NCBI RefSeq assembly: GCF_000473265.1
Contig: NZ_KI421511.1
Span: forward strand, 3,695,560-3,759,559
Length of the DNA stretch: 64,000 nt
DNA from: Amycolatopsis thermoflava N1165
Lineage (GTDB): Bacteria > Actinomycetota > Actinomycetes > Mycobacteriales > Pseudonocardiaceae
Reading direction: 5' to 3'
The notes under the pieces are model-generated. The model was not told where the DNA came from. It did no database searches and saw nothing but the letters and a program-made list of their open reading frames with translations. Shown one piece after another: positions 15,270-31,229 of the stretch. The position numbers and the translations under genes were made by a program. The stretch's first letter is position 1. Each line of letters starts with the position of its first letter.

Positions 15270-16577
15270 TCAGCCGACGACCTCGGTCCGGACCACCGGC
15301 GCCTCCTCGCCCGCCGTCCCGCGGATCTTGCGCGACCGCAGGATGACCGTGGTGCAGACCGTGGAGATGATGCTCATCGACAGCATGTACCAGCCCAGCG
15401 AGGCCGTGCCCCACGCCGCGACCAGGCTCGCGGCGACCATCGGGGCGATGGCGCTGCCCGCGATCATCCCGATCGTGTACCCGATGGACAGCCCCGAATA
15501 GCGCACCTTCGCCGGGAACACCTCGGCGTAGAACACCCCGGCGACGCCCTGCCCGGCGGCGTGCGGCACGCAGAACAGCACGTACCCGGCGAAGACGATC
15601 CACGGGTCGCCGCTGTCCAGCAGCCAGATCCATGGGAAGGCGAGCACCGCCTTGCCGATCATGCCGAACATCATCACCTTCGGCCGCCCGACCCGGTCCG
15701 AGATCATGCCGGACGCCAGCACGAACAGGCAGTCCAGCACCATCGACACCATCACGATGAGCAGGATCGTGCCCCGGCTCAGGCCGAGTTCCTTGGTGGC
15801 GTAGGACAACCCGAACACCGACATCATGTAGAACGCGACGCCGCCGCTGAGAGTCGTGCCCGCCACGAGCAGCGCCCGCGCCGGGTACCGCCGCAGGATG
15901 GTCAGCGCCGGCGCCCGCTCGACGCGGCCGGAGCGCTTGATCTCGGCGAACGTCGGGCTCTCGTCGATCGTGCGGCGCAGCACGTATCCCACGACCACGA
16001 GGATCGCGCTGAGCAGGAACGGGATCCGCCAGCCCCAGGACAGGAAGTCCTCCTGCGGCAGCGCGTTGAGCGGCAGGAACACCAGCGTGGCGACGACCAG
16101 GCCGAGCGGGCCGCCGATCTGCACGAAGCTGCCGTAGAAGCCGCGCTTCTCGGGCCGGCTGTGCTCCATCGTCAGCAGCACCGCGCCACCCAGCTCGCCG
16201 CCCATCGCGAAGCCCTGCACGATCCGCAACACGATCAGCAGGACCGGGGCCAGCACCCCGAGCGTCGAATAGCCGGGCAACAGTCCGATGAGGAGGGTCG
16301 CACCGCCCATCAGGATCAGCGTCAGCACCAGCATCGGGCGGCGACCGACCTTGTCGCCGAGGTGGCCGATGATCACCCCGCCGACGGGCCGGATCAGGAA
16401 CGCCACGGCGAAGGTCGACAGCGACACGAGCGTGCCGGCCAGGCCGGACAGGTTGGGGAAGAACACCTTGTTGAACACCAGGGCGGCGGCGGTGGCGTAG
16501 ATGAAGAAGTCGTAGTACTCGATCGTCGTGCCGATCACGCTGGCCGCGGCCGCGCGCTTGGGCTGCAGTGCAGTCAT
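15270..16577 (-). CDS. MFS metabolite:H+ symporter (MHS family), copy 2
   Basis: A 435-residue 12-helix transporter. IGTTIEYYDFFIYATAAALV at the N-terminus and the loop GHLGDKVGRRPMLV are hallmarks of the metabolite:H+ symporter family (shikimate, benzoate, citrate or proline-betaine type). It is a close tandem paralogue of the next gene upstream (start 17889) along its whole length. It lies at the distal end of the leftward catabolic operon, so it likely imports an acidic substrate or related compound. Confidence 0.92.
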   Translation of the reverse strand: MTALQPKRAAAASVIGTTIEYYDFFIYATAAALVFNKVFFPNLSGLAGTLVSLSTFAVAFLIRPVGGVIIGHLGDKVGRRPMLVLTLILMGGATLLIGLLPGYSTLGVLAPVLLIVLRIVQGFAMGGELGGAVLLTMEHSRPEKRGFYGSFVQIGGPLGLVVATLVFLPLNALPQEDFLSWGWRIPFLLSAILVVVGYVLRRTIDESPTFAEIKRSGRVERAPALTILRRYPARALLVAGTTLSGGVAFYMMSVFGLSYATKELGLSRGTILLIVMVSMVLDCLFVLASGMISDRVGRPKVMMFGMIGKAVLAFPWIWLLDSGDPWIVFAGYVLFCVPHAAGQGVAGVFYAEVFPAKVRYSGLSIGYTIGMIAGSAIAPMVAASLVAAWGTASLGWYMLSMSIISTVCTTVILRSRKIRGTAGEEAPVVRTEVVG

Positions 16578-16590
16578 CAGGCTCTCCTCG

Positions 16591-17889
16591 TCAGGGGGTC
16601 AGCGGGCTCGTCACGGGCGCCTGTTCGCGGCCGGTCACCGTGTGGGAGCGCACGATCACCACGGTGGACACCAGCGAGATCGCGGCCATCGCGAGCATGT
16701 ACCAGCCCAGCGCGGCGGACCCGAACGCGCTCACCAGGCTTTCGGCCACCACCGGGGCGATCGCGCTTCCCGCGATCATGCCGATCGTGTAGCCGATGGA
16801 CAGTCCGGAATACCGCACCGCGGGCGGGAACGCCTCCGCGTAGAACACGCCCGCCACGCCCTGCACCGCGCCGTGCGGCACGCACAGCAGCACGTACCCG
16901 GCGAAGATCACCCACGGGTTCCCGGTGTCCAGCATCCAGATCCAGGGGAACGACAGCACCGCGAGACCGATCATCCCCGCGATCATCACCTTCGGGCGGC
17001 CCAGCCGATCCGACAGCGTGCCCGCGGCGAACACGAACAGGCAGTCCAGCACCATCGACGCCATCACGACGAGCAGGATCGTTCCGCGCGGCAGGCCGAG
17101 GTCCTTGGTGGCGTAGGACAGGCCGAACACGGCCATCATGTAGAACGCGATGCCGCCGATCAGGGTGGTGCCCGCGATCAGCAGTGTCCGGAGTGGATAC
17201 TGCCGGACGATGGTCAGCGCGGGCGCCCGGTCCACCCGGCCGGCACGCTTGATCTCGGTGAACGTGGGGCTCTCGTCGATCCGCCGCCGCAGGAAGTAGC
17301 CGACGGCGATGAGGGCCACGCTGAGCAGGAACGGGATCCGCCAGCCCCAGTTCAGGAAGTCCTGCTGCGGCATGGCGCCCAGCGGCAGGTAGACCAGTGT
17401 CGCCAGCACGAGCGCGAGCGGGCCGCCGATCTGCACGAAACTGCCGTAGAACCCGCGTTTGCCCGGCTGGCTGTGCTCCATCGTCAGCAGCACCGCGCCG
17501 CCGAGTTCGCCGCCCATCGCGAACCCCTGCAGCACCCGCAGGAGGATCAGCAGGACCGGCGCGGCGACGCCGATGGTCGAGTACCCGGGCAATAGTCCGA
17601 TGAGGAGGGTCGCGCCGCCCATCATGGTCAGCGTGAGCACCAGCATCGGCCGTCGCCCGACCTTGTCGCCGAGATGCCCGATGATCACGCCGCCGAGCGG
17701 GCGGACCAGGAAGGCCACCGCGAAGGTCGACAGCGACACCAGTGTCCCGGCCAGGCCGGTCAGCGTCGGGAAGAACACCTTGTTGAACACCAGCGCGGCG
17801 GCGGTGGCGTAGATGAAGAAGTCGTAGTACTCGATGGTGGTGCCGATGACGCTCGCCGCGGCGGCGCGTCGGGGCTGCAGAGTGGACAT
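16591..17889 (-). CDS. MFS metabolite:H+ symporter (MHS family), copy 1
   Basis: A 432-residue transporter with the same opening motif as its neighbour and the same GHLGDKVGRRPMLV loop. Only 13 bases separate the two genes, with a ribosome site (gagagc region) before each ATG. Divergence is concentrated in the termini and a few loops, such as the last 15 residues (REQAPVTSPLTP against EEAPVVRTEVVG). Duplication within an operon often serves two related substrates or a dosage need. Confidence 0.92.
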   Translation of the reverse strand: MSTLQPRRAAAASVIGTTIEYYDFFIYATAAALVFNKVFFPTLTGLAGTLVSLSTFAVAFLVRPLGGVIIGHLGDKVGRRPMLVLTLTMMGGATLLIGLLPGYSTIGVAAPVLLILLRVLQGFAMGGELGGAVLLTMEHSQPGKRGFYGSFVQIGGPLALVLATLVYLPLGAMPQQDFLNWGWRIPFLLSVALIAVGYFLRRRIDESPTFTEIKRAGRVDRAPALTIVRQYPLRTLLIAGTTLIGGIAFYMMAVFGLSYATKDLGLPRGTILLVVMASMVLDCLFVFAAGTLSDRLGRPKVMIAGMIGLAVLSFPWIWMLDTGNPWVIFAGYVLLCVPHGAVQGVAGVFYAEAFPPAVRYSGLSIGYTIGMIAGSAIAPVVAESLVSAFGSAALGWYMLAMAAISLVSTVVIVRSHTVTGREQAPVTSPLTP

Positions 17890-17928
17890 GATCGCGCTCT
17901 CTTCGTTGAGAGGGACATGGGGGATTTT

Positions 17929-18393
17929 TCAGGAGGCGAGGTAGGCCCCACGGTGGAAGAGCAACGGCTCACCGGGTGCGGCGGCCAGCGCGCGGACCTC
18001 GCCGACGACGATGGTGTGGTCGCCGCCGTCGTACTCGGCCCAGATCTCGCAGTCGATCCAGGCGAGCACGCCGTCGAGGACGGGCGAGCCCAGCTCGCTC
18101 GGCGACCAGCGGACGCCGGCGAACTTGTCGGTGCCGGACCGCGCGAACGCGTCCGACAGATGCCGCTGGTCGGCGGCGAGGATGTTGACGCAGAACGAGC
18201 CGATTTCGCGGATCCTCGGCCAGGTGCGCGACCCGCGGCCGGGCGCGAACGTGACCAGTGGCGGGTCGAGGGACAGGGAGGCGAACGACTGGCAGGTGAA
18301 GCCGACCGGCTCGGGACCGGCGGCGGTGACCACCACGACCCCGGAGCAGAAGGAGCCGAGCACGTCCCGCATCAGGCGACCGGGCACGGTCAT
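17929..18393 (-). CDS. Flavin reductase (FMN-binding split-barrel, HpaC type)
   Basis: A 154-residue protein starting MTVPGRLMRDVLGSFCSGV. The motif GFTCQSFASLSLDPPLVTF binds the flavin, and GSFCVNILAADQRHLSDAFA is the second family block. These enzymes reduce free FMN or FAD with NAD(P)H and hand it to a partner monooxygenase. The LLM monooxygenase at the head of this operon is the obvious partner. A good ribosome site (aaggag) lies 6 bases before the ATG. Confidence 0.93.
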   Translation of the reverse strand: MTVPGRLMRDVLGSFCSGVVVVTAAGPEPVGFTCQSFASLSLDPPLVTFAPGRGSRTWPRIREIGSFCVNILAADQRHLSDAFARSGTDKFAGVRWSPSELGSPVLDGVLAWIDCEIWAEYDGGDHTIVVGEVRALAAAPGEPLLFHRGAYLAS

Positions 18394-18410
18394 GGTGTTC
18401 TCCTTCCGGG

Positions 18411-19334
18411 TCAGAGCACGGCGACCGCGTTGCCGGGCGATCCGAGGCCGCCGACCAGGGCCAGCGGCACGGAGACGAACAGGAAGTCCGGCCGGGAGCT
18501 CTCGTGGAGCCGGGCGGCCAGGGTGTCGAAGTCGAACAGCTCGCCGAGCGGGATGCCGAGCATCCCCAGCAGCCGCCGGTGCAGGCTGCCGACCGCCGCG
18601 TCGCCGGGGGTCACCTCGACGGCCGGGTTGTCGGCGCTGATCGCGGCGACGTGCCAGTCCCACAGCAGTTCCGCCGTGCTCTCGTCGGCGGCCAGCCCGG
18701 CGGAGCTGAACGACGACTTCTGCGCGGAGATCGCCGCGCGGCCCTCGGCGTCCAGTCCCCGGTAGGCGGACAGCCAGCCGGTGCGCACGCACAGGATGTC
18801 GCCGGGCCGGATCTCCGCGCCCTGCGCCTCCGCGACCGCACGCAGGTCGTCGGCGGTGATCGACCGCTCGGCCAGCGCGTCCAGGTCGCCGAAGTGCCGG
18901 GCGACGTCGAGCAGCACACCGCGCCCGATGATCCCGGAGCTCGCCCAGTGGTGGATGCTCAACCGGGGGTTGCCCGGCGCGGGATCGTCCTGGACGCCGC
19001 CGTAGAAACCGTGCTGGCGGACCCGGTGGTGGCGGAACCCGTCCCACTGCGTGGAACCCTGCGGGAAGAACGAGTCCAGCCGGTCGTCCCACATGCTGCC
19101 GATCCGCTTGACGGTGTGCCGGAACGGCTCCCGGCGGAACAGCGGCGGATCGGGCTGGTCCAGCGGGAGGCTGAGGCCGACCCGCTCACCGGTGCGCACC
19201 AGGGCGGTGGCCGCGCGCACCGCGTCGGCGTCGATCAGGTTGAGGGTGCCGAGTTCGTCGTCCTGGCCGAACACGCCCCAGGAGTGGTTGCCGTAGTCGT
19301 CCAGGCGCGGCAGCTCGGCGTACTTGGGGAGCAT
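18411..19334 (-). CDS. Cyclase-family metal hydrolase (kynurenine formamidase-like fold)
   Basis: A 307-residue protein starting MLPKYAELPRLDDYGNHSWG. The block GSTQWDGFRHHRV is this subfamily's version of the H-x-G-T-H-x-D metal motif, with IIGRGVLLDVARHFG downstream and a C-terminal PLALVGGLGSPGNAVAVL. Members hydrolyse cyclic amides, lactones or formamides using Mn or Zn. The gene overlaps the dehydrogenase gene upstream (TGATG). It may open a ring or lactone formed by the monooxygenase; this overlaps in role with the phosphotriesterase-type gene at 22535. Confidence 0.85.
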   Translation of the reverse strand: MLPKYAELPRLDDYGNHSWGVFGQDDELGTLNLIDADAVRAATALVRTGERVGLSLPLDQPDPPLFRREPFRHTVKRIGSMWDDRLDSFFPQGSTQWDGFRHHRVRQHGFYGGVQDDPAPGNPRLSIHHWASSGIIGRGVLLDVARHFGDLDALAERSITADDLRAVAEAQGAEIRPGDILCVRTGWLSAYRGLDAEGRAAISAQKSSFSSAGLAADESTAELLWDWHVAAISADNPAVEVTPGDAAVGSLHRRLLGMLGIPLGELFDFDTLAARLHESSRPDFLFVSVPLALVGGLGSPGNAVAVL

Positions 19335-20566
19335 CACAGCTCCGTGTCGCCGGCGAGCAGGCGCCCGGCGATCGTGCGGCGCTGGATCTCCGACGTGCCG
19401 TCCGGGATCCGCAGCGTGCGCGCGTGCCGCCAGACCTCCTCCAGCCGCATCTCGTTGGTCAGGCCCATCGCGCCGTGCACCTGCATCGCGGCGTCGGACA
19501 CCCGGCCGAGCATCTCGGTGCACAGGGCCTTGGCGATGGAGGTCTCCTTGATCGCCCGCTGCTTGCTCTCCACCAGCGCGGCGGTCCGCCCGACCACCGA
19601 CTTGGCCGCGTAGATGTCCATCGCCATTTCGGCGAGCTTGATCTGGATGGCCTGGTGGTCGCCGATCACGCTGTCGAACGTCTCACGCTGCCGGGCGTAG
19701 TCCAGTGCCCGCTCCAGCGACCAGCGGGCCAGCCCCACGCACATCGCGGACATCGACAGCCGCCCCTTGCTGATCCCGAGCAGCGCCAGGGAAAGTCCCT
19801 TGTGGAGGGTGCCGATCACGTGGTCGTCGGGCACCCGCAGGTTGTCCACGGTCACGATGCCGATGTGCGAGCCGACGTGCCCGAGGATGGGGATGGTGCT
19901 GCTGCACTCGAAACCCTCGCTGGCGGTGTCGACGAAGAACGCGGTGATGCCGCCGCGCCGCTCGCGGTTGGCCTCGGGATCGGTGACCGCGAACAGGATG
20001 CAGTAGTCGGCGTAGGGCGCGTTGGTGATCCACTGCTTGGAACCGTTGATCACCCACTCGTCGCCGTCGCGCACCGCGCGGGTGCGGATCCGCTGGACGT
20101 CGGAGCCCGCGCCGGGTTCGGACAGTCCGAAGCAGAGGGTCTTCTCCCCCGACGCGATCCCGGCGACGTACCGCTCGCGGACGTCGGGCTTGAGTTCGGA
20201 GAGGATCGGGCTCAAGCCGTTGGTGAACACCGACGGGATCACGTTCTCGTGGACGAGCGGCCGGTGCGGTCCGCAGACGCGGTTCAGCTCCTCCTGGATG
20301 TGGACGAGCGCGACCTCGCCGAGCCCGCCCCCGCCGAGCGCCTCGTCGCCGAACATCGTGTAGAACCCGGCCTCGGCGGAGGCCATCCGCACCTGCTTCT
20401 TCAGCGCCCTGATCTCGGGCTTGAGCAGGCCGTTGTCGTCGTAGCGGTGCCGTTCCTCCGCCAGCAGGTCCGCGTGCTTCCGCTCGAGGGGCTCGACGTA
20501 CCGCTCGATGAAGCCGAGCACCCCCTTCGCGGTCTCCCTGGCTTCGTCCGGGACGGTGAAATCCAT
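19334..20566 (-). CDS. Acyl-CoA dehydrogenase
   Basis: A 410-residue flavoenzyme. CFGLSEPGAGSDVQRIRTRA and EWVINGSKQWITNAPYADY are the FAD and substrate signatures; the C-terminal block MHGAMGLTNEMRLEEVWRH and LRIPDGTSEIQRRTIA completes the fold. The usual catalytic glutamate position falls in the region MRLEEVWRHAR. It introduces an alpha-beta double bond in an acyl-CoA. Cytoplasmic. It is translationally linked to the cyclase gene downstream and 5 bases after the regulator gene. Confidence 0.95.
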   Translation of the reverse strand: MDFTVPDEARETAKGVLGFIERYVEPLERKHADLLAEERHRYDDNGLLKPEIRALKKQVRMASAEAGFYTMFGDEALGGGGLGEVALVHIQEELNRVCGPHRPLVHENVIPSVFTNGLSPILSELKPDVRERYVAGIASGEKTLCFGLSEPGAGSDVQRIRTRAVRDGDEWVINGSKQWITNAPYADYCILFAVTDPEANRERRGGITAFFVDTASEGFECSSTIPILGHVGSHIGIVTVDNLRVPDDHVIGTLHKGLSLALLGISKGRLSMSAMCVGLARWSLERALDYARQRETFDSVIGDHQAIQIKLAEMAMDIYAAKSVVGRTAALVESKQRAIKETSIAKALCTEMLGRVSDAAMQVHGAMGLTNEMRLEEVWRHARTLRIPDGTSEIQRRTIAGRLLAGDTEL

Positions 20567-20571
20567 GCGCT

Positions 20572-21327
20572 TCAGGTCTTCCTCTTCTTGGGCGCGCGCT
20601 TGAGGTCGTTGGCGTTGGCCTTCTCCAGGTCCAGCGCCAGCGAGCGCGCCCAGATGCTGGTCAGGGTGGCGACGACCTGCTCGATGTCCAGGTCGTCGCG
20701 TTCGCCGAGGATGAGGTTGATGTACGCGAAGTTGTTGATCATCGCGACGATGGCCTCGGCGGTCAGTTCGGCTGAGATGTCCGGGTCGGCGGCGCCCTGC
20801 TGCTGCAGGCGCTCGATGCCGTGCTGGATGCGTTCGCGGAACTTGCGGCGGATCTCCATGCGGTTCTCGCGCATGTGCTCGTCGAAGGTCACGACCTGCT
20901 CGACGATGCGGCTCAGGCGCTTGGACCGCTGGATCTCCTCGAAGTACTGCCGCAGGGTGTAGGCGAACCGGTCGACGACGGTCCCTTCGAAGTCCTCCGG
21001 CACGGCGGTCAGCAGGTAGCGGTCGGCGACGACCGAGTCGACCAGCGTGTAGAAGATCTCTTCCTTGTCCGGGAAGTAGATGTAGAAGGTGCCGTGCGCC
21101 AGCCCGGCCTCGTCGCAGATGTCGGAGACGCGCGTGTCCAGGAAGCCCTTGTTCTCGAACACCGTGCGCGCCGCGGCGAGCAGCCGTTCCCGGGTCTTCT
21201 GGCCGCGCGCCGTGCGTGGCTGCGCGTCCGCGCGCTCGCGCGACGCCTTCGACCCGGTCCGCTTGTTGCCCGTCGTGCCGCCGCTCGTCATCTTCACCCC
21301 AAGTGGTCCGCCGTCAGTTCGCGCCAT
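20572..21327 (-). CDS. TetR-family regulator, probable controller of the catabolic locus
   Basis: A 251-residue regulator. After a charged N-terminal tail comes a TetR HTH: RERLLAAARTVFENKGFLD, VSDICDEAGLAHGTFYIYF, PDKEEIFYTLVDSVV. The C-terminal ligand domain is all helical. It is embedded in the leftward operon between the monooxygenase and the acyl-CoA dehydrogenase, which supports local control. The palindromes at 22474 and 30713 are its most likely sites. An alternative start (MTSGGTTGNKR) lies 36 bases downstream. KstR-type TetR repressors, which sense CoA esters, are the nearest functional model. Confidence 0.88.
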   Translation of the reverse strand: MARTDGGPLGVKMTSGGTTGNKRTGSKASRERADAQPRTARGQKTRERLLAAARTVFENKGFLDTRVSDICDEAGLAHGTFYIYFPDKEEIFYTLVDSVVADRYLLTAVPEDFEGTVVDRFAYTLRQYFEEIQRSKRLSRIVEQVVTFDEHMRENRMEIRRKFRERIQHGIERLQQQGAADPDISAELTAEAIVAMINNFAYINLILGERDDLDIEQVVATLTSIWARSLALDLEKANANDLKRAPKKRKT

Positions 21328-21336
21328 TGTCGCGAT

Positions 21337-22389: not shown

Positions 22390-22463
22390 GGCACTCCAAT
22401 ACGACCCGGTGAACGAGACACTGCGCTGAACGAAAACCCTTGCAGCGCCGGGTGAAGACTCAC

Positions 22464-22534: not shown

Positions 22535-23494
22535 ATGGCCACCGTCCAGACCGTGACCGGCGCGCTCGACACCGGCGACCTCGGACGCGTGCTCATGCAC
22601 GAGCACGTGTTCGTCATCAACCACGAGTACGCGGTCAACTACCCCGAGACCTGGGACGACGAACAGCGCATCGCCGACGCGGTCGCCAAGCTCGTCGCGT
22701 TGAAGGAAGCCGGGATCGACACCATCGTCGACCTCACCGTGCTGGGCCTGGGCCGGGACATCCGGCGCGTGCGCGCGGTGGCCGAACGGTCACCGGTGCG
22801 GATCATCGCCGCCACCGGGTTCTACACGTTCGCCGAACTGCCCAACTACCTCAAGTTCCGCGGCCCGGGACGGCTGATCGGCGGTGACGAGCCGATGACC
22901 GGCATGTTCGTCCGCGACATCACCGAGGGCATCGCGGGCACCGGCATCCGCGCCGGGATCCTCAAGTGCGCCACCGACGTTCCCGGTGTGACGCCCGATG
23001 TCGAGCGGGTGCTGCGCTCGGTCGCCCGTGCGCACCTGGAGACCGGGGTGCCGATCTCCACGCACACCGACGTGTCCACGCAGCGCGGCCTCGACCAGCA
23101 GAAGATCTTCGCCGAGGAGGGTGTCGACCTGGGCGCGGTGATCGTCGGGCACAGCGGCGACTCCGACGACCTGGACTACCTGCAACGGTTGCTGGACAAC
23201 GGTTCCTACCTCGGGATGGACCGGTTCGGCCTGGACACCAAGCTGGCCTTCGACAAGCGCGTCGCGACCGTCGCCGCCCTGGCCGAGCGCGGGTACGCCT
23301 CCCGCATGGTGCTCTCGCACGACGCGTCCTGCCACAGCCACAACTTCCCGGACGACTTCCGCACCAAGCACCTGCCGGACTGGCGGTTCACCCACATCAC
23401 CGAGGACGTGGTGCCCGCGCTGCTGGGGGCCGGGGTGTCGCAACGCGACATCGACGTGATGCTGATCGACAACCCGCGGGAGATATTCTCGTGA
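22535..23494 (+). CDS. Phosphotriesterase-family metallohydrolase (lactonase-like)
   Basis: A 319-residue TIM-barrel amidohydrolase. Metal ligands are visible: the H-x-H pair in LMHEHVFV, the carbamylated-lysine candidate in GILKCATD, histidines in PISTHTDVS and VIVGHSGDSDD, and the Asp in VLSHDASC. The family hydrolyses phosphotriesters, but many environmental members are lactonases, which fits a monooxygenase pathway. It heads the rightward operon and overlaps the next gene (GTGA). A Shine-Dalgarno (gggaga) lies about 10 bases before the ATG. Confidence 0.9.
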   Translation: MATVQTVTGALDTGDLGRVLMHEHVFVINHEYAVNYPETWDDEQRIADAVAKLVALKEAGIDTIVDLTVLGLGRDIRRVRAVAERSPVRIIAATGFYTFAELPNYLKFRGPGRLIGGDEPMTGMFVRDITEGIAGTGIRAGILKCATDVPGVTPDVERVLRSVARAHLETGVPISTHTDVSTQRGLDQQKIFAEEGVDLGAVIVGHSGDSDDLDYLQRLLDNGSYLGMDRFGLDTKLAFDKRVATVAALAERGYASRMVLSHDASCHSHNFPDDFRTKHLPDWRFTHITEDVVPALLGAGVSQRDIDVMLIDNPREIFS

Positions 23495-24060
23495 CCGTCC
23501 TGCAGGAGTCCACAACGGACACCGCGATCGGCGCGCTGCGCGCGGGGCGGCCGGTCGTGCTGCTCGACGACCTGGGGCCGCACCCGGAACGCGAGCTCGT
23601 GTTCGCCGCGCGGTCCGCGACCACCGCGCTGGTGGCGGGCGTGGTCCGGTGCACGTCGGGCTTCCTGGTCGTCACGCTGCCGGAACCGGAAGCCGACCGG
23701 CTGCGGCTCGCCGCCCAGTCCCCCGCCGACCGCGGCGCGCCGGCCTACGGCGTGTCCGTGGACGCCGAGGGCGTCGGCACCGGCATTTCCGCCGCCGACC
23801 GCGCCCGCACCATCTCGCTGCTGGGCACGCCCGGCACCGCGCCGGACGTCTTCACCCGGCCCGGGCACGTGATCACCTACCGCGCGCACCCCGACGGCGT
23901 GCTCGGCCGCGCCACGGGCCGGGAAGCGGCCTTCGACCTGGTCCGGCTCGCCGGTGCCGGGTTCGCCGTCGCCGGCGCCGCCCTCACCTCCGACGAGCCG
24001 CTGCCCGGGTTGCCGGTGGTCACCGCGTCCGGCGTGCTCGCCCACCGCCTCTCCCACTGA
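23491..24060 (+). CDS. RibB-like protein with altered active site
   Basis: A 189-residue relative of 3,4-dihydroxy-2-butanone 4-phosphate synthase. The fold is recognisable from GALRAGRPVVLLDD, YGVSVDAEGVGTGISAADRA and PGHVITYRAHPDGVLGR. The acidic loop that in RibB reads D-E-D-R-E-N-E-G-D is here DDLGPHPEREL, and the H-T-E-A block is TGREAA, so the catalytic histidine and most loop residues are lost. It is therefore unlikely to make riboflavin precursor and probably has another pathway role. Starts with GTG overlapping the upstream stop. Its own stop codon is the target duplication of the IS element that follows. Confidence 0.75.
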   Translation: MTVLQESTTDTAIGALRAGRPVVLLDDLGPHPERELVFAARSATTALVAGVVRCTSGFLVVTLPEPEADRLRLAAQSPADRGAPAYGVSVDAEGVGTGISAADRARTISLLGTPGTAPDVFTRPGHVITYRAHPDGVLGRATGREAAFDLVRLAGAGFAVAGAALTSDEPLPGLPVVTASGVLAHRLSH

Positions 24061-24078
24061 CAACTCGTTTCATAATGA
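24061..24078 (+). repeat. Left terminal inverted repeat of the IS5-family element
   Basis: 18-base end that pairs with the inverted copy at 24928-24945 with a single mismatch. The left target duplication TGA is also the stop codon of the RibB-like gene. Confidence 0.9.
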
Positions 24079-24477
24079 AGTCGGCAGCTTGCGGTAGCAG
24101 ATGAGGACGCAGGCCAGGTGCATGAGGCCAAGGTGGATGTCGGCTCGGCGTTCCCAGCGGATCCGTAAACGCTTGAACTGGTGCAGCCAGGCGAACATCC
24201 GCTCAACTACCCATCTGATCTTGCCGAGACCGGAGCCGTGAGCGGTGTTCTTGCGAGCGATTCGCGGGACGATGCCCTTGTCTCGCAGGGTCTTGCGGTG
24301 ATGGTCGTAGTCATAGCCGCGGTCGCCGTAGAGCCAGCGCGGGCGCTGACGAGGCCGGCCGCGTTTCCCGCGGATCACTGGAAGCGCCTCGACCAGCGGT
24401 ATGAGCTGCGTGCTGTCGTGCCGGTTGCCACCAGTAACAGACACCACGAGCGGAATACCGTTGCCGTCGGTGATCAC
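24070..24477 (-). CDS. IS5-family transposase, orfB part (catalytic DDE)
   Basis: 135 residues giving the second and third acidic catalytic regions: SVTGGNRHDSTQLIPL, LYGDRGYDYDHHRK with the second Asp, and KIRWVVERMFAWLHQFKRLR with the catalytic Glu. Its ATG overlaps the orfA stop (ATGA), but the conserved upstream residues (ATGPSPVDRARLGSKHH) are read in this frame before that ATG. It is therefore most likely made as a frameshift fusion with orfA. Confidence 0.88.
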   Translation of the reverse strand: MITDGNGIPLVVSVTGGNRHDSTQLIPLVEALPVIRGKRGRPRQRPRWLYGDRGYDYDHHRKTLRDKGIVPRIARKNTAHGSGLGKIRWVVERMFAWLHQFKRLRIRWERRADIHLGLMHLACVLICYRKLPTSL

Positions 24478-24905
24478 ATGGTGCTTGGAACCGAGCCGAG
24501 CCCGATCGACGGGCGAGGGGCCCGTCGCTTCCCCCCTTTCAACGCCCGTACATGCGACCCATCCACCACCGCCACATCCAGATCGAGCCGATCCAGCGCT
24601 CGCAGCTGGTCAAGCAAGAGCTTGTGCACCGCGTCGAACACCCCGGCCTCGGTCCAGGCCCGCAACCGACGCCAACAGGTCACCCCGGAGCAGCCGAACA
24701 CCTCACGCGGCAGCTCCCGCCACGAGATCCCGGTCTTGAGCACGAACACGATCCCCGCCAACGCCGCCCGGTCATCCACCGGCAACCGACCCGGATACCG
24801 ACTCCGCCGCACAGGCCTCGGCGGCAGCAACGGCTCCACCCGCTGCCACAGACTGTCGGGAACCAACTTCTCAATCACCACATCAGCATGCCCACACTTG
24901 ATCAA
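24474..24905 (-). CDS. IS5-family transposase, orfA part
   Basis: 143 residues from a TTG start, with the N-terminal DUF4096-like region (LVPDSLWQRVEPLLPPRPV, GISWRELPREVFG) and the first catalytic Asp in VAVVDGSHVRALKGG. The run AAAGGGGGG at about 24531-24539 (minus strand) lies just after this Asp. Slipping back one base there joins the frame to orfB and restores the family-typical sequence, so programmed -1 frameshifting is likely. Confidence 0.85.
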   Translation of the reverse strand: MIKCGHADVVIEKLVPDSLWQRVEPLLPPRPVRRSRYPGRLPVDDRAALAGIVFVLKTGISWRELPREVFGCSGVTCWRRLRAWTEAGVFDAVHKLLLDQLRALDRLDLDVAVVDGSHVRALKGGKRRAPRPSIGLGSVPSTM

Positions 24906-24927
24906 CTACGGCCAGCAGACGCGCCGA

Positions 24928-24945
24928 TCATTTTGAAACGAGTTG
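24928..24945 (-). repeat. Right terminal inverted repeat of the IS5-family element
   Basis: Inverted copy of the left end, 17 of 18 bases identical. Immediately followed by the second TGA target duplication and then the ribosome site (aagga) of the crotonase gene. Confidence 0.9.
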
Positions 24946-24959: not shown

Positions 24960-25775
24960 ATGAGCGTCGTCCGCACCGAGCGGAACGGGAAGATCGCCGA
25001 GGTGGTCCTGAACCGCCCGGACAAGCTCAACGCGTTCAACGACGAGCTGTTCACCACCTACGAGGAGGCGCTGGCCGAGCTGGGCGCCGACGACAGCGTG
25101 TCGGTGATCATCGTGCGTGGTGAGGGCCGCGCGTTCAGCGTCGGCTGGGACGTGAGCAAACCGCCGTCCGGCAACGGGTATGCCCACCGCACCGCGCACG
25201 AAGACTGGCTGCGCCTGCGCGGGCACATCCGGGCGTTCTCGGCGGTGTTCGACGTGCCCAAGCCGGTGGTCGCGGCCGTGCACGGCTACTGCATGGGCGG
25301 CGCGACACTGATCCCGGCGTGCGCCGACCTCGCCGTCGTCGGCGACGACACCAAGATCGCGTGGCCGGTCCTGCCGATCGGCGGCGGGATGCTCGGGCCG
25401 ATGGCGATGTACGCGATCGGCCCGAAGAAGGCGAAGGAACTGTCCTACACCGCGGGCAGCCACATGATGGGCCCGGAGGCGGCCCGCCGCGGCTGGGCCA
25501 ACTACTCGGTGCCCGAGACCGCGGTGCTGGACAAGGCACGCGAGGTCGCGACCGAGATCGCCAAGACCCCGTTGGACATGCTGGAGATCAAGAAGCGCGC
25601 GGCGAACGACGTCCTGGTCCGCCAGGGCTTCCGCGAAACGCTGGACAACTGCGCGGGCTGGGACGCGCTCATCCACACCTCCGCGGGCAACCGCTGGATG
25701 TCCGGGCAGCTGTCCGAGATGGGCATCTCCGCCGCCCGTGCCTGGTACGCCGAGGGCGGCTCGCTCACCCGCTGA
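24960..25775 (+). CDS. Crotonase-fold protein lacking both hydratase glutamates
   Basis: A 271-residue enoyl-CoA hydratase/isomerase-family protein. The oxyanion-hole regions are intact (EGRAFSVGWD and VHGYCMGGA). The two positions that carry the catalytic glutamates in true hydratases are Leu (GGATLIPACAD) and Val (IAWPVLPIG). It is thus likely to do another crotonase reaction, such as isomerisation, C-C hydrolysis or dehalogenation. Without the IS element its start would lie 12 bases after the RibB-like stop, so it belongs to the rightward operon. Confidence 0.88.
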   Translation: MSVVRTERNGKIAEVVLNRPDKLNAFNDELFTTYEEALAELGADDSVSVIIVRGEGRAFSVGWDVSKPPSGNGYAHRTAHEDWLRLRGHIRAFSAVFDVPKPVVAAVHGYCMGGATLIPACADLAVVGDDTKIAWPVLPIGGGMLGPMAMYAIGPKKAKELSYTAGSHMMGPEAARRGWANYSVPETAVLDKAREVATEIAKTPLDMLEIKKRAANDVLVRQGFRETLDNCAGWDALIHTSAGNRWMSGQLSEMGISAARAWYAEGGSLTR

Positions 25776-25799
25776 CCCACTTCCACGACAAGGAGACCC

Positions 25800-27809
25800 A
25801 TGTCCCTGGTAGCCGTCGTCGGCGCCTCGCCCCGCAACTTCTGGACCACCTGCGCCATCCACAACCTGCGCACGCTCGACCCCGCGCTCGAGGTCGTGCC
25901 GGTGACGCCCAACCACCAAACCATCGCCGGGCTGCCGACCGTTCCGGACGTGTCCGCGCTTCCGGAAACGCCCCGCGCCGCCGTCATCGCGATCCGCCGG
26001 GAAGCCTCGGTGGAAGCCGTCCGTCAGCTGACCGCCGCGGGAACCCGGGACATCGTGCTGGTGACCGACGGTTTCGGGGAGCGCGACGACACCGGCCGGG
26101 CGTTGCAGGCCGAGCTGGTGGACATCGTCGCCGGCACCGGAACCCGGCTGTGGGGGCCGAACTGCGTCGGTTTCGCGGACTTCGCCGAGAAGGTGTGCGC
26201 GGTCGCGGAACCTGCCTGGCTGGACGCCAAACCCGGGCCGGTGTCGATCGTGTCGCAGAGCGGCGCGCTGCTGTCTGCGTTCCTCGCCGCGGCGACCGAG
26301 GAGAACCTCGGCGTCGACTTCTGCGCCTCGACCGGCAACGGCGCCGTGCTGGGCGTGCCGCAGGCGCTGAACCTGGCGCTGCGCCGGGACACCACGCGCG
26401 TGGTCTGCGTGTACCTGGAGGGCGTTTCGGAGCAGCAGCTGCCCGTGTTCCTCGACGCCTTCGAGTACGCGCGGCAGGCAGGCAAGCAGATCATCGTCCT
26501 GAAGTCCGGGGTGTCCGAACGCGGAGCGCGTGCGGTCATGTCGCACACCGCGAGTATCTCGGGCACCGACTCGGTGTTCTCCGAGCTGCTGCGTGAGCAC
26601 GGGGTCCTGCGGGCGGATGGCGCCGACGAGCTGGTGCGGCTGGCCACGTTGTGCCTGCTCGGAGTGAAGGCGGGCCGGCCGCGGGCGGTGTCGGTGCTCG
26701 GCGGCTCCGGTGGCGCGGCGGCGTTGTGCAGCGACCTGGCCGACCGGCACGGGGTCAACCTGACGGTGTTCGCCGATTCGACGGTGGCGAAGATCCGGGA
26801 GCTGGCCGGGCCGGGGTCGTTCATCGACAACCCGCTCGACGTGATCGGGGTGAAGCGCCGCGAGGGCGACGACAGCATCAACGGGACCGTGTTCAAGGAC
26901 CCGAACACCGGCCTGGTCCTGCTGCCGTGGAGCGTCCAGTTCCCGTCGGCGACCGAGCACGAATCGGTGCACACGTGGAACTGGGGTGATCTCTCCCGGC
27001 TGTCCGCGGAGAACGAGATGCCGCTGATCATCAACTCGATGGCGCCGGTGCCGGACACGGAGTTCGTGCGCGCGTACGGGGAGGCGCACCCGCACGTCGC
27101 GGTGCTGCACAACCTGCGGCTCACGTTCTCCGCGCTGGGCAAGCTGTTCCCCGCCCAGCCGGCGCCGGCCACGCACGCGGTCGCGGCGGAGGCACGGGTG
27201 CTGAGCGAGGCCGACTCGCGTGACCTGGTCGCCGCGGCCGGACTGCCCGTGGTGCGCGGGGTCCGGGCCGGCCGGGGCGAGGACATCGCGGCGCTGGCCG
27301 CGGACCTGCGGCCGCCGTTCGCGGTGAAGGTGATCGCGCCGGTCAGCCACAAGTCGCGGATCGGCGGCGTCGCCCTGGGCGTCGCGCAGGCCGCCGACCT
27401 GCCCGCCTGCGCGAAGGAGATCGAGTCCAACGTGGTCGCCGCCGGGTTGTCGCCGGAGGACGTCGAGGGCTTCCTGGTCGAGGAGATGGTGTTCGGGCGG
27501 GAGGTCCTGGTCGGGTTGAACACCGATCCGGTGCTGGGCCGGTACGTCGTGGTCGGGCTCGGCGGCACGGCGACCGAGCTGGCCAACCGGGCGCTGACCC
27601 GGCGGCTGCCACTGCGGCCGGGCGACGCCGAGCACCTTCTCGCCGAGGTGGGGGTGACCGGGCACGACGCCGCCGTGTCGGCGCTGGCCGGGCTGTGCGA
27701 GGCGTTCGACGGCGGCAGCCTGGGCGGCTACCAGACGGTCGAGATCAACCCGCTGATCGTGACGCCGACCGAGTGCTGGGCGGCCGACGCCGTCGTGACG
27801 GAGTTCTGA
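25800..27809 (+). CDS. NDP-forming acyl-CoA synthetase (fused alpha-beta type)
   Basis: A 669-residue ligase. Residues about 1-130 form a CoA-binding Rossmann domain (VAVVGASPRNF, RLWGPNCVGFADF). About 130-450 are succinyl-CoA-synthetase-like domains with VSIVSQSGALLSAFLA and the phospho-histidine loop AVMSHTASISG. About 460-669 are an ATP-grasp domain (AVKVIAPVSHKSRIGGV, GREVLVGLNTDPVLG, GGYQTVEINPLIV). Such enzymes activate an acid to its CoA ester with ATP or GTP, giving ADP or GDP and phosphate. It is 24 bases after the crotonase gene with ribosome site aaggag. Confidence 0.93.
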   Translation: MSLVAVVGASPRNFWTTCAIHNLRTLDPALEVVPVTPNHQTIAGLPTVPDVSALPETPRAAVIAIRREASVEAVRQLTAAGTRDIVLVTDGFGERDDTGRALQAELVDIVAGTGTRLWGPNCVGFADFAEKVCAVAEPAWLDAKPGPVSIVSQSGALLSAFLAAATEENLGVDFCASTGNGAVLGVPQALNLALRRDTTRVVCVYLEGVSEQQLPVFLDAFEYARQAGKQIIVLKSGVSERGARAVMSHTASISGTDSVFSELLREHGVLRADGADELVRLATLCLLGVKAGRPRAVSVLGGSGGAAALCSDLADRHGVNLTVFADSTVAKIRELAGPGSFIDNPLDVIGVKRREGDDSINGTVFKDPNTGLVLLPWSVQFPSATEHESVHTWNWGDLSRLSAENEMPLIINSMAPVPDTEFVRAYGEAHPHVAVLHNLRLTFSALGKLFPAQPAPATHAVAAEARVLSEADSRDLVAAAGLPVVRGVRAGRGEDIAALAADLRPPFAVKVIAPVSHKSRIGGVALGVAQAADLPACAKEIESNVVAAGLSPEDVEGFLVEEMVFGREVLVGLNTDPVLGRYVVVGLGGTATELANRALTRRLPLRPGDAEHLLAEVGVTGHDAAVSALAGLCEAFDGGSLGGYQTVEINPLIVTPTECWAADAVVTEF

Positions 27810-29230
27810 TGCGCTGCTACGTCGACGGGGAGTGGATCTCCGCGGACTCGGGCGACACGCTCGAAGTCCTGGATCCGGCCACCGGCGAACTGGTCGGCAC
27901 CGTGCCCGCGCTGGGTGCGAAGGAGACCCGGCGGGCCATCGAGGCGGCCGCGGCCGCGTTGCCGTCGTGGCGGTCGCTGACGGCCGCGGACCGGGCTGCG
28001 GTGATGATGCGCCTGCACGGGCTCATGCGGTCCCGGACCGACGAGCTGGCCCGGCTGCTCACCCGTGAGCAGGGCAAACCGCTGGCCGAGGCCCGTGCGG
28101 AGATCCTGTCCGGGGCGGATTTCCTCGAGTTCTACGCCGAAGAGGCCAAGCGGATCACCGGGGACGTGATCCCGGCCGACCGGGCGGGCCGCCGGCTCGT
28201 GGTGATCCGGCAGCCGGTCGGGGTGGTCGCCGCGATCACGCCGTGGAACTTCCCCAGCTCGATGATCCTGCGCAAGATCGCTCCCGCGCTGGCGGCGGGC
28301 TGCACGGTGGTCGTGAAACCCGCCGAGCTGACTCCCCTGTCCGCGCTGGCGCTGGGCGGGCTGGCCGAGGAGGCCGGCGTGCCCGCGGGGGTGCTGAACA
28401 TCGTGACCGGCGAGCCCTCGGTGATCGGCCGTGAGCTGCTGGAGAGCCCGGTGGTGCGCAAGCTGTCGTTCACCGGGTCGACCGAGGTCGGCAGGCACCT
28501 GACGCGGGGCAGCGCGGACACGCTGAAACGGGTGTCGATGGAGCTGGGCGGCAACGCGCCGTTCCTGGTGTTCGACGACGCCGACCTGGACCTCGCGGTG
28601 CGGGGCGCGGTCGCGGCGAAGTTCCGCAACGCCGGGCAGACGTGCATCTCGGCCAACCGGATCTACGTGCAGGACCGGGTGCACGACGAGTTCGTGCGCC
28701 GCCTCGCCGACGCCGCGTCGTCGCTGCGGCTCGGGCACGGCCTGGACCCGGCGACGGACGTCGGGCCGCTGATCTCGTCGGCGGCGGTGACCAAAGCGGA
28801 GGGGCTGCTCGCCGGAGCGGTGGCCGCCGGAGCACGCGTGGTGACCGGCGGCCGCTCCCCCGGCGGGCGGTTCTTCGAGCCGACGGTGCTGACCGGCGTC
28901 CGGGAGGACCTGGCGCTCGGGTGCGAGGAGATCTTCGGGCCGGTCGCGCCGGTGTACTCGTTCACCGACGAGGATTCGGTGGTCGCGCGCGCCAACGCCA
29001 CGGAGTTCGGCCTGGCGGCGTATGTGTACACAGAGGACTACCGGCGGGCCTGGCGGGTCGGCGAAGCCCTCGAATACGGCATGGTGGGCGTGAACGACAG
29101 CGCGATCGCGACCGCGGCCGCTCCGTTCGGCGGGATCAAGGCGTCCGGGTCCGGCCGGGAGGGCTCGCGGTACGGGATCGAGGACTACACCGAGCTGAAG
29201 TACCTCTGTCTGGGCGGACTGGGTTCCTGA
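27809..29230 (+). CDS. NAD(P)-dependent aldehyde dehydrogenase
   Basis: A 473-residue ALDH. ITPWNFPSSMILRKIAPALA is the cofactor motif, SMELGGNAPFLVFDDADLD holds the general-base Glu, and FRNAGQTCISANRIYVQD holds the catalytic Cys. FGGIKASGSGREGSRYGIEDY at the end is typical of succinate-semialdehyde-type members. It overlaps the synthetase stop by one base (TGATG). Likely oxidises a ring-opened semialdehyde to the acid that the synthetase then activates. Confidence 0.95.
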   Translation: MRCYVDGEWISADSGDTLEVLDPATGELVGTVPALGAKETRRAIEAAAAALPSWRSLTAADRAAVMMRLHGLMRSRTDELARLLTREQGKPLAEARAEILSGADFLEFYAEEAKRITGDVIPADRAGRRLVVIRQPVGVVAAITPWNFPSSMILRKIAPALAAGCTVVVKPAELTPLSALALGGLAEEAGVPAGVLNIVTGEPSVIGRELLESPVVRKLSFTGSTEVGRHLTRGSADTLKRVSMELGGNAPFLVFDDADLDLAVRGAVAAKFRNAGQTCISANRIYVQDRVHDEFVRRLADAASSLRLGHGLDPATDVGPLISSAAVTKAEGLLAGAVAAGARVVTGGRSPGGRFFEPTVLTGVREDLALGCEEIFGPVAPVYSFTDEDSVVARANATEFGLAAYVYTEDYRRAWRVGEALEYGMVGVNDSAIATAAAPFGGIKASGSGREGSRYGIEDYTELKYLCLGGLGS

Positions 29231-29238
29231 GGCGTCGG

Positions 29239-29268
29239 CGGTGGCTTCACACGGCCGTGAAGCCACCG
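29239..29268. terminator. Bidirectional hairpin between convergent operons
   Basis: Perfect 12-bp stem CGGTGGCTTCAC / GTGAAGCCACCG with a 6-base loop. It starts 9 bases after the aldehyde dehydrogenase stop and overlaps the last codons of the convergent SDR gene. It can end transcription from both sides. Confidence 0.65.
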
Positions 29269-29951
29269 TCGATGACCAGTTCGGCGCCGGTGGTGTACCG
29301 CGACTCGTCCGACGCCAGGTACAGCACCCCGTACGCGACGTCCAGCGGCTCACCACGCCTGCCCAGCGGGATGCTCGCGAGCGTGCGGGCGTTGTACTCC
29401 CGCGCGGCCTCGTCCTGGCGGATCGAACCGGCCGAACCGGTTTCGATCGATCCCGGGTGGACGGAGTTGACGCGGATCCCACGCGGGGCGTAGGTGGCGG
29501 CGTCCGCCTTGGTCATCAGCCGCACCGCGCCCTTGGTGGCGTGGTAGACCGGCAGCATCGAGTTGCCGACCAGGCCGTACATCGACGACATGTTGACGAT
29601 GCTGCCGCCGTCCGGCATGTGCGGGACCGCGTGTTTGGTGCACAGCCAGGTGCCGCGGACGTTGACCGCGAAGGCGTTGTCGAACTCCTCGACGGTCACC
29701 TCGTGTGACGGCTTGCGCGGCCCGGCGATGCCGGCGTTGTTGACCAGGACGTCGATGCGCCCATGCTCCTCGACGACGCTTCGCATGGCCTGGGCCACCT
29801 GGGTTTCGTCGCGGATGTCCACACTCTGCTCACCGGTCACGTCGAACCCGGTGACGCTCGCGCCGTTCTCGGTCAGCAGCCGCGCGATCGCGGCGCCGAG
29901 GCCGCGGGCCGCGCCGGTGACCACGCAGACCTTGCCCGCGACCCGGTTCAC
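29247..29951 (-). CDS. SDR-family oxidoreductase (second of pair)
   Basis: A 234-residue classical short-chain dehydrogenase starting at GTG ([17 protein letters not shown]). [12 protein letters not shown] is the nucleotide loop, [11 protein letters not shown] the structural motif, and Ser in IVNMSSMYG with YHATK gives the catalytic Ser-Tyr-Lys. The C-terminus [15 protein letters not shown] is typical. It overlaps the upstream SDR by GTGA. Substrate unknown; in this locus probably an alcohol intermediate. Confidence 0.92.
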
Positions 29952-30673
29952 GCGGGCCTCGCCGAGATCGCCGAGCCGCCGCCGTCGACGCGGATCACCT
30001 GTCCCGTCAGGTAACTCGCCTGGGGCGAGGCCAGGAAGCAGACCACCGCGGCGACCTCCTCCGGCCGTCCCATCCGTCCCAACGGGATGGTCGTCTCCCA
30101 GCGCGCCCTCGCTTCGTCGTCGGACCAGGCGTCGTCGTTGATGGCTGTGCGGACGAAACCGGGGTTGACGACGTTGACCGTGACCCCGCGCGGCGCGAGC
30201 TCGGCGGCGAGTTCCTTGGTGAGCGCGACAACGCCGCCCTTGGACGCGGTGTAGGCAGGGTAGGCGTAGCCGCGGTCGGCGGCGCCGGAGCCGATGTTGA
30301 CGATCCGCTTGTCCGACCCGGTCGTCAGGTGGGGCAGGGCGGCGCGCACGACGCGGAAGGTGCCGGACAGGTTGACGTCCAGGACGTTGTGCCACGTTTC
30401 CCAGGTGGTGTCCCGGATTCCCGCGCGGGCGAGCACACCGGCGGCGTTGACCACGATGTCGATCCGGCCGTGCTCGTGCACGGTCTGCTCCACCGCGGCC
30501 GCGACCTGCTCGTCGCTGGTGACGTCACAGGTGATCTGGAGAGTGCCGGGCGGGGCGGTGCCGGCGCGGTCGAGTGCCGCGACCCGAACGCCCTCGTCGA
30601 CGAACTGCCGCGCGATGGAAGCGCCGATCCCCGAAGCGGCGCCCGTCACGAGAGCGACCCTTTTCCCAGTCAT
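29948..30673 (-). CDS. SDR-family oxidoreductase (first of pair)
   Basis: A 241-residue short-chain dehydrogenase. [15 protein letters not shown] binds the cofactor, [12 protein letters not shown] (with Ala in place of the second Asn of NNAG), Ser in [10 protein letters not shown] and YTASK are the catalytic set. It reads leftward from the second shared operator and drives the SDR pair. It is only moderately similar to its neighbour, so the pair likely handles different steps. Confidence 0.93.
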
Positions 30674-30701
30674 GGCAACGACCTCTCTGTCGAACCTGCC
30701 C

Positions 30702-30734
30702 TTGACTGGAACATGACACGTGCGTCATTGTCAA
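30702..30734. promoter_or_regulatory. Divergent promoter with TetR-type operator (site 2)
   Basis: ATGAC and GTCAT arms at 30713-30728 within a 25-base stretch (30710-30734) that matches site 1 except for one base. TTGACT (30702-30707) and CATTGT (30726-30731) are also conserved, with an 18-base spacer. The rightward gene starts at GTG 30738, so its transcript would be leaderless or nearly so. The leftward SDR pair starts at 30673. Confidence 0.72.
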
Positions 30735-30737
30735 TGC

Positions 30738-31229
30738 GTGATCGACGAACTCGTTGCCAGAGCGGAAATCACGGACGTGCTGTGCCGGTACGCGCACGCC
30801 ATCGACCGCGGGGACCGCGCGCTGGCGCGGACGTGCTACCACCCCGACGCGACGGACGACCACGGCCGGTTCAGCGGGACCGTGGACGAGTTGTTCGCGT
30901 TCTTCGAGTCGTACGGCGCGAGCCTGGCCGGCACGTGGCACTTCCTCGGCACGCCGACGATCGTGGTGGACGGCGACCGAGCGGAGGCGGAGACGTACTG
31001 CCTGTACCGCAAGGACCCGCTCGAGGGCGAGCCGCTGTTCCAGGGGCTGCGGTACCACGACGTGTTCTCCCGCCGCGAGGACCACTGGCGAATCGCGCGG
31101 CGGACGGTGATCCTGGACTGGGAGCACACGTCACCAGAGCCACCCGCCGCGCCAAGCCCACCCACCTGGAAGCGCGGCGCGCGGGGCGACGCCGACCCGG
31201 CCGCCTCCCTCACCCGGCTGTTGCGCTGA
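30738..31229 (+). CDS. SnoaL-like (NTF2-fold) protein
   Basis: A 163-residue protein starting at GTG (VIDELVARAEITDVLCRYAHAID). The pattern ALARTCYHPDATDDHGRF followed by GTWHFLGTPTIVVDGDRAEAE is the SnoaL_4 fold, used by dehydratases, isomerases and ring hydrolases or as a non-catalytic partner. His-Asp pairs in the pocket region (YHPDATDDHG) could be catalytic. It is under the second shared operator and so belongs to the catabolic regulon. The last 25 residues are Pro-rich and likely disordered. Confidence 0.8.
   Translation: MIDELVARAEITDVLCRYAHAIDRGDRALARTCYHPDATDDHGRFSGTVDELFAFFESYGASLAGTWHFLGTPTIVVDGDRAEAETYCLYRKDPLEGEPLFQGLRYHDVFSRREDHWRIARRTVILDWEHTSPEPPAAPSPPTWKRGARGDADPAASLTRLLR

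Follow-up and report, generated by a model that had tools for sequence, protein, structure and literature searches.

A syntenic LLM monooxygenase cluster of Amycolatopsis thermoflava N1165 as a candidate regulon for the breakdown of an imported organic acid

Gene content of the locus

The window analysed here, a 64,000-nt stretch of the 8.69 Mb genome of the soil actinomycete Amycolatopsis thermoflava N1165 (contig NZ_KI421511.1), contains at positions 15270-31229 a gene cluster that includes a luciferase-like monooxygenase (LLM) and a flavin reductase, and that we examine as a candidate catabolic regulon. Two arms leave a divergent promoter region near 22460. The leftward arm encodes the LLM, a TetR-type regulator, an acyl-CoA dehydrogenase, a cyclase-family protein, the flavin reductase and two metabolite:H+ symporters (MHS2 and MHS1), and the rightward arm a phosphotriesterase-like hydrolase (hereafter PTE), a RibB-like relative of 3,4-dihydroxy-2-butanone-4-phosphate (DHBP) synthase, a crotonase, an NDP-forming acyl-CoA synthetase and an aldehyde dehydrogenase. 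Distal to the aldehyde dehydrogenase lie two short-chain dehydrogenases/reductases (SDR2 and SDR1, leftward) and a SnoaL_4 protein (rightward). The features, in window coordinates, are as follows.

15270-16577, minus strand: MHS1, metabolite:H+ symporter; MFS_1/Sugar_tr; TIGR00883 404.5 bits, below the cut-off of 443.45
16591-17889, minus strand: MHS2, tandem copy of MHS1 (80% identity)
17929-18390, minus strand: flavin reductase; PF01613, 154.6 bits
18411-19334, minus strand: cyclase-family protein, QWDG subfamily; PF04199
19334-20566, minus strand: acyl-CoA dehydrogenase family protein; PF00441/02770
20572-21327, minus strand: TetR-type regulator; PF00440
21337-22389, minus strand: LLM monooxygenase; PF00296, 197.7 bits
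22463-22495, no strand: operator/promoter-like element, copy 1; two divergent -35/-10-like pairs whose spacers contain the palindrome ATGACACGCGCGTCAT
22535-23494, plus strand: PTE, probable lactonase; PF02126, 328 bits
23491-24060, plus strand: loop-less DHBP-synthase-like (RibB-like) protein; PF00926, 131.5 bits, no further family matched
24061-24945, minus strand: IS4/IS5-type insertion sequence; two transposase reading frames, inverted repeats, TGA on each side
24960-25775, plus strand: crotonase without the two catalytic glutamates; PF00378
25800-27809, plus strand: NDP-forming acyl-CoA synthetase; Succ_CoA_lig, ATP-grasp_5, CoA_binding_2
27809-29230, plus strand: aldehyde dehydrogenase; PF00171, nearest named models succinate-semialdehyde dehydrogenases
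29247-29951, minus strand: SDR2; PF13561
29948-30673, minus strand: SDR1; PF13561
30702-30734, no strand: operator/promoter-like element, copy 2, between SDR1 and SnoaL; CATGACACGTGCGTCATTGTCAA, 1 mismatch in 23
30738-31229, plus strand: SnoaL_4/NTF2-fold protein; PF13577

Gene calls and Pfam searches recovered every gene that an initial annotation of this sequence had listed, each where it had been placed; that list lacked the 885-bp insertion sequence (IS). The start of the SnoaL_4 gene was set at 30738 instead of 30720, because the latter position falls within the second element copy. The co-encoded LLM (PF00296) and flavin reductase (PF01613) domains mark the pair as a two-component LLM monooxygenase.

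Orthologous clusters and a common operator-like element

A scan of genome contigs with the LLM returned six loci, five of them syntenic with the window cluster (87-96% identity) and one a 30% match without other cluster genes. Because its core is syntenic in five genomes (Prauserella flavalba, P. cavernicola, P. halophila, Saccharopolyspora ipomoeae and Amycolatopsis acidicola), the cluster is not a chance grouping. Two further LLM orthologues have 74% and 66% identity; the search for the same gene set in other genomes that the initial annotation had proposed thus yielded, besides the five named Pseudonocardiaceae, two more divergent clusters. In what follows the window and loci L009-L013 are the six close clusters (L012 from A. 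acidicola), L024 and L027 hold the two more divergent LLM genes, making eight orthologous clusters in all, and L030 is a locus of P. halophila.

Across 297 genomes of the family, each counted singly whatever their kinship, the LLM was found in eight, the window genome counted (E up to 1e-100), and the NDP-forming synthetase in six, all within the eight LLM holders (E up to 1e-180). A crotonase of at least 80% identity occurs in the same six genomes as the synthetase; at E up to 1e-50, 18 of the 297 genomes match, among them the two LLM holders without the synthetase, at 52% and 45%. By tblastn (E up to 1e-8), all eight loci contain LLM, acyl-CoA dehydrogenase, crotonase and PTE genes, seven contain the cyclase-family gene and seven the flavin reductase gene, six SnoaL and five the RibB-like gene. 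MHS1 has orthologues of 72-86% identity in L009-L012, which carry one MHS gene each, and cluster comparison found none in L013; the second MHS gene is confined to the window among the six close clusters. In L011, SDR and SnoaL genes follow MHS1 in the orientation of the LLM arm. The aldehyde dehydrogenase, which scores 666 bits against NF008415 (cut-off 828) and 635.5 bits against TIGR01780 (cut-off 646.35), lies beside the synthetase in the window alone among the six close clusters, and distant aldehyde dehydrogenases (36-44%) occur in the flanks of L012, L013 (L031) and L027; having no close copy in the syntenic clusters, it was dropped as a core member. Among twelve genes tested for the ratio of non-synonymous to synonymous substitution rates (dN/dS; MHS1, MHS2 and the aldehyde dehydrogenase were left out), the RibB-like gene gave the highest values (0.34, 0.40 and 0.54 against L009, L010 and L011) and the other eleven ranged from 0.07 to 0.31.

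The LLM holders span five genera, and 2 of the 19 listed genomes of the window's own genus carry the gene, a patchy distribution that suggests horizontal spread of the cluster. Class-wide searches found no further LLM (1 of 394, the genome's own; E up to 1e-70) and no further crotonase (1 of 197; E up to 1e-60), so that the known relatives are all Pseudonocardiaceae; plasmid homologues of the LLM reach 31-33% identity only (4 records, E up to 1e-30). A tRNA-Asn gene at window positions 31599-31672, about 370 bp beyond the end of the SnoaL gene, is a possible integration point. In P. halophila, a second cluster adjoins the orthologous one (L030, 5966-12704) with a flavin reductase, two crotonases and another LLM (32% identity), together with genes that by eye resemble AMP-ligase, thiolase and alpha/beta-hydrolase genes.

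The spacer between the LLM and PTE genes holds the element CTTGACTAAACATGACACGCGCGTCATTGTCA, whose 32 nt are exact in five of the eight clusters (window and L009-L012), with related copies in L013, and in L011 and L012 the rest of the spacer diverges while the element stays exact. Read by eye, it carries TTGACT-17 nt-CATTGT rightward and TTGACA-17 nt-TTTAGT leftward, so that two promoter-like pairs, divergent and overlapping, have the palindrome in their spacers. In P. halophila, where genes for a tripartite ATP-independent periplasmic (TRAP) transporter split LLM and PTE, sequences related to the element persist upstream of both genes, with 3, 6 and 8 mismatches across the 32 nt. The second window copy at 30702-30734, with its single mismatch in 23, compares with 0 expected in 100 shuffles, and related copies lie at the SnoaL/SDR1 boundary in L009, L010 and L030 (8 mismatches each in an ungapped 32-nt count; the window is the same, with one base extra). 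A 30-nt pattern of the element has a single match in the genome within 3 mismatches and none when read backwards. A common conserved element therefore precedes both arms and the SDR/SnoaL genes, the arrangement expected of a single regulon, and the locus is probably a jointly regulated cluster. That the two arms lack co-expression, which the initial annotation had named as a possible refutation, is spoken against by the co-occurrence and the common operator-like copies; together with the synteny in the five named genomes, these bear out its view of a catabolic locus whose parts belong together.

Two further features lie to the left of the cluster. A glutamate-cysteine-ligase family 2 match at 13748-15133 that spans no more of the profile than positions 120-205 of 291 has the look of a broken gene, and ThuA, sugar-dehydrogenase and 3-keto-disaccharide hydrolase domains, Ig-like repeats and a multicopper oxidase at 6238-12398 suggest a distinct sugar-derivative locus.

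Altered active sites and loop-less DHBP-synthase relatives

Three proteins of the cluster, the crotonase, the cyclase-family protein and the RibB-like protein, lack catalytic residues that their family names imply; routine annotation would probably label them enoyl-CoA hydratase, cyclase and RibB. The initial annotation had already called the crotonase glutamate-less, and the two glutamate positions of PaaF are indeed Leu and Val in the window protein. In related crotonases they are Leu/Met and Val/Thr/Ser, neither glutamate being present in any of 12 sequences, so the catalytic pair of an enoyl-CoA hydratase is missing. The control PaaG, an annotated isomerase, also lacks both glutamates, so the loss has precedent in the superfamily; it speaks against an ordinary hydratase without pointing to a novel enzyme type.

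The initial annotation further counted two hydrolases able to open rings or lactones, which is probable for the PTE and doubtful for the cyclase-family protein. The PTE segments MHEH, LKC, THT/THA/THS, GHSGD/GHCGD and SHD/STD, which we take to be the metal-site HxH, carboxylated Lys, His, His and Asp, are kept in 8 of 8 clusters, and the best PDB match, compared by sequence alone, is the phosphotriesterase homology protein 4if2 (389.8 bits); the PTE is a probable lactonase. The cyclase-family protein reads QGSTQWD; where the HxGTHxD motif has its two His, all 12 aligned sequences have Gln. It therefore lacks the metal-hydrolase signature of kynurenine formamidases and cyclases, and hydrolase activity should not be assumed. 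Its only PDB match, 5ibz, which carries no protein name, also reads STQWD. A relative elsewhere in the genome (L078) reads HCGTHVD; it lies in a large sister cluster (L078, L054 and L079; G000:C1, ~488-530 kb) with RibBA, two cyclase-family proteins, crotonases, acyl-CoA dehydrogenases and LLMs, as well as biotin-carboxylase- and CoA-transferase-like genes recognised by eye.

For the RibB-like protein, the family relation (PF00926) is confirmed, the window protein keeping the TGISAxDRxxT and RPGH segments (the Asp of the former is missing in L009 and L010), and the catalytic motifs of DHBP synthase are lost. The window protein and its four orthologues lack the loop RENEGD and the His of GHTEA, both of which E. 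coli RibB and four further copies in this genome retain. A role as a working riboflavin enzyme was accordingly dropped.

Of the eight PF00926 loci in the genome, four have the full loop; of the four that lack it, three lie no more than 63 bp from a flavin reductase gene (survey of loci L049-L052 and L056-L058 and window 23491-24060). Five of the eight loci are within 10 kb of one of 97 LLM places, compared with 17% of random points. A survey of 60 genomes of the family gave 98 PF00926 matches. Of the best-scoring copies, one for each of the 60 genomes, none lies within 10 kb of a flavin reductase among the matches listed, compared with at least 14 of 18 further copies scoring 230 bits or more and at least 12 of 20 weaker ones; these counts are lower bounds that used 158 reductase places, 8 of them added for the window's own genome only. 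The 20 weaker copies include four from the own genome and the L010 gene. Of the other 15, which were examined, L060, L073 and L068 keep the GHTEA histidine (the L068 match does not reach the loop), and both motifs are missing from the remaining 12 and from the three copies that the genome carries outside the window. Searched with tblastn, 13 of these 18 loci contain a flavin reductase, 8 of them at a distance of no more than 70 nt, and none was found in L060, L063, L065, L071 and L073. The loop-less proteins were rejected as one clade: in a tree of 28 rows, from which the partial L068 was omitted and in which L060 and L073 counted as loop-less despite their GHTEA histidine, parsimony gives 3 changes, at least 2 of them forced by well-supported branches.

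We tentatively propose, as a possibility held with some doubt, that loop-less DHBP-synthase relatives, the window protein among them, form an accessory component, so far unrecognised, of two-component flavin monooxygenase systems. Synthesis of the riboflavin precursor would have been lost repeatedly while part of the old binding site was kept, and the proteins might serve the reductase/oxygenase pair, for example by binding flavin or a phosphorylated ligand. Against such a role, the RibB-like gene is missing from three of the eight clusters (L012, L024 and L027) and evolves fastest of the twelve genes tested. A comparable arrangement is described for the ipp cluster of Rhodococcus sp. D-6, which acts on 2-isopropylphenol: a 214-aa DHBP-synthase-like protein, named only 'Synthase' in the table there, is encoded between the oxygenase gene ippA1 and the reductase gene ippA2 and is induced 4.46 log2-fold on this substrate together with them, and IppA1A2 is active in vitro without it (PMC12442392). 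The likeness lies in the position of the gene amid oxygenase and reductase genes, whereas ipp has a group D oxygenase and an aromatic substrate (PMC12442392).

Rhodococcus megaplasmid clusters (L033 and L034), which carry three LLMs, likewise bring together LLM, SDRs, CoA ligase, NTF2 protein, flavin reductase, RibBA and acyl-CoA dehydrogenase. Their nearest LLM has ~32% identity, the RibBA of L033 has an intact loop, and they carry an alpha/beta hydrolase and no PTE or cyclase match; they appear related to the window cluster in composition only.

Substrate class, putative route and alternatives

The carriers and CoA activators of the cluster have been exchanged among its relatives. MHS genes are found in the window, L009-L012 and L024, and TRAP genes in L013 and L027; CoA activation falls to the NDP-forming synthetase in six genomes, to an AMP-binding ligase in L024 and to a CaiB-type CoA-transferase in L027. 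Four more distant clusters (L074-L077), reached via the crotonase and representing 4 of 10 matching genomes without the LLM, have in common the cyclase (55-56%), a glutamate-less crotonase (42-47%) and a different LLM (26-30%), with a distant NDP-synthetase (27-31%) that is Pfam-confirmed in L074 only; an acyl-CoA dehydrogenase was called in L074, L075 and L077 and not in L076. L074 carries an MHS gene (38%), and L075-L077 carry genes for tripartite tricarboxylate transporters (TTT), identified by Pfam in L077 (TctC, TctA) and by eye in L075 and L076. MHS, TRAP and TTT carriers usually move carboxylates. The exchange of carriers and of three CoA activators argues for an imported acid handled as a CoA thioester: the substrate is probably a carboxylate taken up from outside and activated early, and its structure is probably that of a cyclic or branched keto- or hydroxy-acid. 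A terpenoid or free cyclic ketone as the imported substrate, along the lines of the initial annotation, is not supported, the order of oxygenation, ring opening, oxidation and CoA activation given there found no support, and the aldehyde dehydrogenase lies outside the conserved core.

Taking together the gene content, synteny, co-occurrence, common element and exchange of carriers and activators observed here, we consider, at about even confidence, that the cluster is a TetR-controlled, patchily distributed regulon for the aerobic, CoA-dependent breakdown of an imported organic acid. The substrate class, the reactions and their order are predicted from sequence. The TetR protein would bind the operator-like element. 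An MHS symporter would import the carboxylate, the NDP-forming synthetase would make its CoA thioester, and SDR1 and SDR2 would adjust hydroxyl and keto groups. With reduced flavin supplied by the flavin reductase, the LLM would insert oxygen, most likely in a Baeyer-Villiger type reaction, and the PTE would hydrolyse the resulting ester or lactone; the acyl-CoA dehydrogenase and the glutamate-less crotonase, probably not a simple hydratase, would then act on the thioester. The scheme assigns its steps without the cyclase-family, SnoaL and RibB-like proteins.

Several observations weigh against this reading. The element is absent from L024 and L027, no flavin reductase was found in ~33 kb around the A. 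acidicola cluster (L012, L032) and no cyclase in 44 kb around L027, and gene calls and Pfam scans found no thiolase in the cluster. Crotonases of 36-47% identity occur in ten genomes without the LLM, four of them at 43-47%. The IS between PTE-RibB and crotonase-ligase may impair the downstream genes. Lastly, the LLM scores higher against PDB chains of alkanal monooxygenase (109.8 and 87.1 bits) than against 3,6-diketocamphane monooxygenase (54.6 bits), which makes its Baeyer-Villiger class a guess.

Monoterpene-type alicyclic degradation, as the initial annotation proposed, would run from alcohol to ketone, lactone and hydroxy acid with late CoA activation. Such a sequence can be built from the LLM, reductase, two SDRs, lactonase, aldehyde dehydrogenase and CoA ligase. 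An LLM of Caenibius tardaugens is described as performing Baeyer-Villiger oxidation of progesterone (PMC12239570), and the camphor route employs two-component diketocamphane monooxygenases (PMC6352141). Neutral terpenes should need no MHS, TRAP or TTT carrier, yet one such carrier is replaced by another rather than lost, and conservation does not extend to the aldehyde dehydrogenase, so we regard this route as unlikely.

Decay of the locus, with the IS and the dead-looking RibB-like gene marking a cluster that is leaving use in this genome, is quite unlikely. The IS (885 bp, 24061-24945, between the RibB-like and crotonase genes; inverted repeats of 19 nt, 95% complementary) is confined to the window among the six close clusters and looks recent, since the genome holds seven full-length copies including this one; the high dN/dS of the RibB-like gene points the same way. 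The other eleven genes tested have the low ratios given above, and the IS is intergenic, flanked on both sides by TGA, of which the left is the stop codon of the RibB-like gene, with both flanking reading frames whole. The RibB-like and crotonase genes, 14 nt apart in P. flavalba and ~200-360 nt apart in L010, L011 and L013, probably adjoined each other before the insertion.

LLM enzymes often act on sulfur compounds, and in an organosulfur-acid pathway the LLM would oxygenate a thiol, sulfide or sulfonate carbon, and desulfination of a CoA thioester would fall to the acyl-CoA dehydrogenase relative. The latter matches the 3-sulfinopropanoyl-CoA desulfinase model at 163 bits (cut-off 600) and the LLM the dimethylsulfone monooxygenase model at 57.3 bits (cut-off 382.95), and growth on 4,4'-dithiodibutyrate is reported to raise an LLM and an acyl-CoA dehydrogenase in Rhodococcus erythropolis MI2 (PMC5157978). 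We consider this very unlikely: both scores are far under the cut-offs and not best matches, the alkanesulfonate monooxygenase model gives 39.7 bits (cut-off 518.2), and no sulfite, sulfide or ABC sulfonate-transport gene was recognised among the annotated genes at 15270-31229. Highly improbable is an N-heterocycle (pyridine-like) or amide route to succinate semialdehyde, with the cyclase as formamidase and the aldehyde dehydrogenase last, which an LLM, reductase and cyclase-family amidase and the top succinate-semialdehyde dehydrogenase scores would fit, but in which the cyclase lacks two motif histidines, the aldehyde dehydrogenase lacks a close copy in syntenic relatives and the acyl-CoA genes are left unexplained.

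For the organic-acid regulon that we favour, two known systems offer comparisons. The camphor diketocamphane pathway (type II Baeyer-Villiger, P. putida CAM plasmid) has an LLM oxygenase with a separate flavin reductase and later CoA activation of the acid. The window cluster resembles it in these respects and differs in its acid carriers and NDP-forming ligase; in a comparison of the LLM alone, the match to 3,6-diketocamphane monooxygenase is weak. The nearest published idea found is the genome-predicted scheme for carboxyl-rich alicyclic molecules in SAR202, with many FMN monooxygenases, ketone-priming SDRs, lactone opening, CaiB CoA-transferases and beta-oxidation, and, like ours, a prediction (PMC5395668). 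There the enzymes are described as paralogue families in partial single-cell genomes and not as such a cluster, whereas here one cluster with a common element recurs in Pseudonocardiaceae (PMC5395668). Among the papers listed in searches of open-licence full texts we recognised none that describes this gene set; the cluster would be a new assembly of known enzyme types.

The cluster gathers annotations that had no common name into a regulon open to testing, which has a candidate operator and a substrate class narrowed to imported, CoA-activated carboxylates. The repeated pairing of stripped DHBP-synthase relatives with flavin reductases raises the question of how two-component monooxygenases are supplied or assisted.

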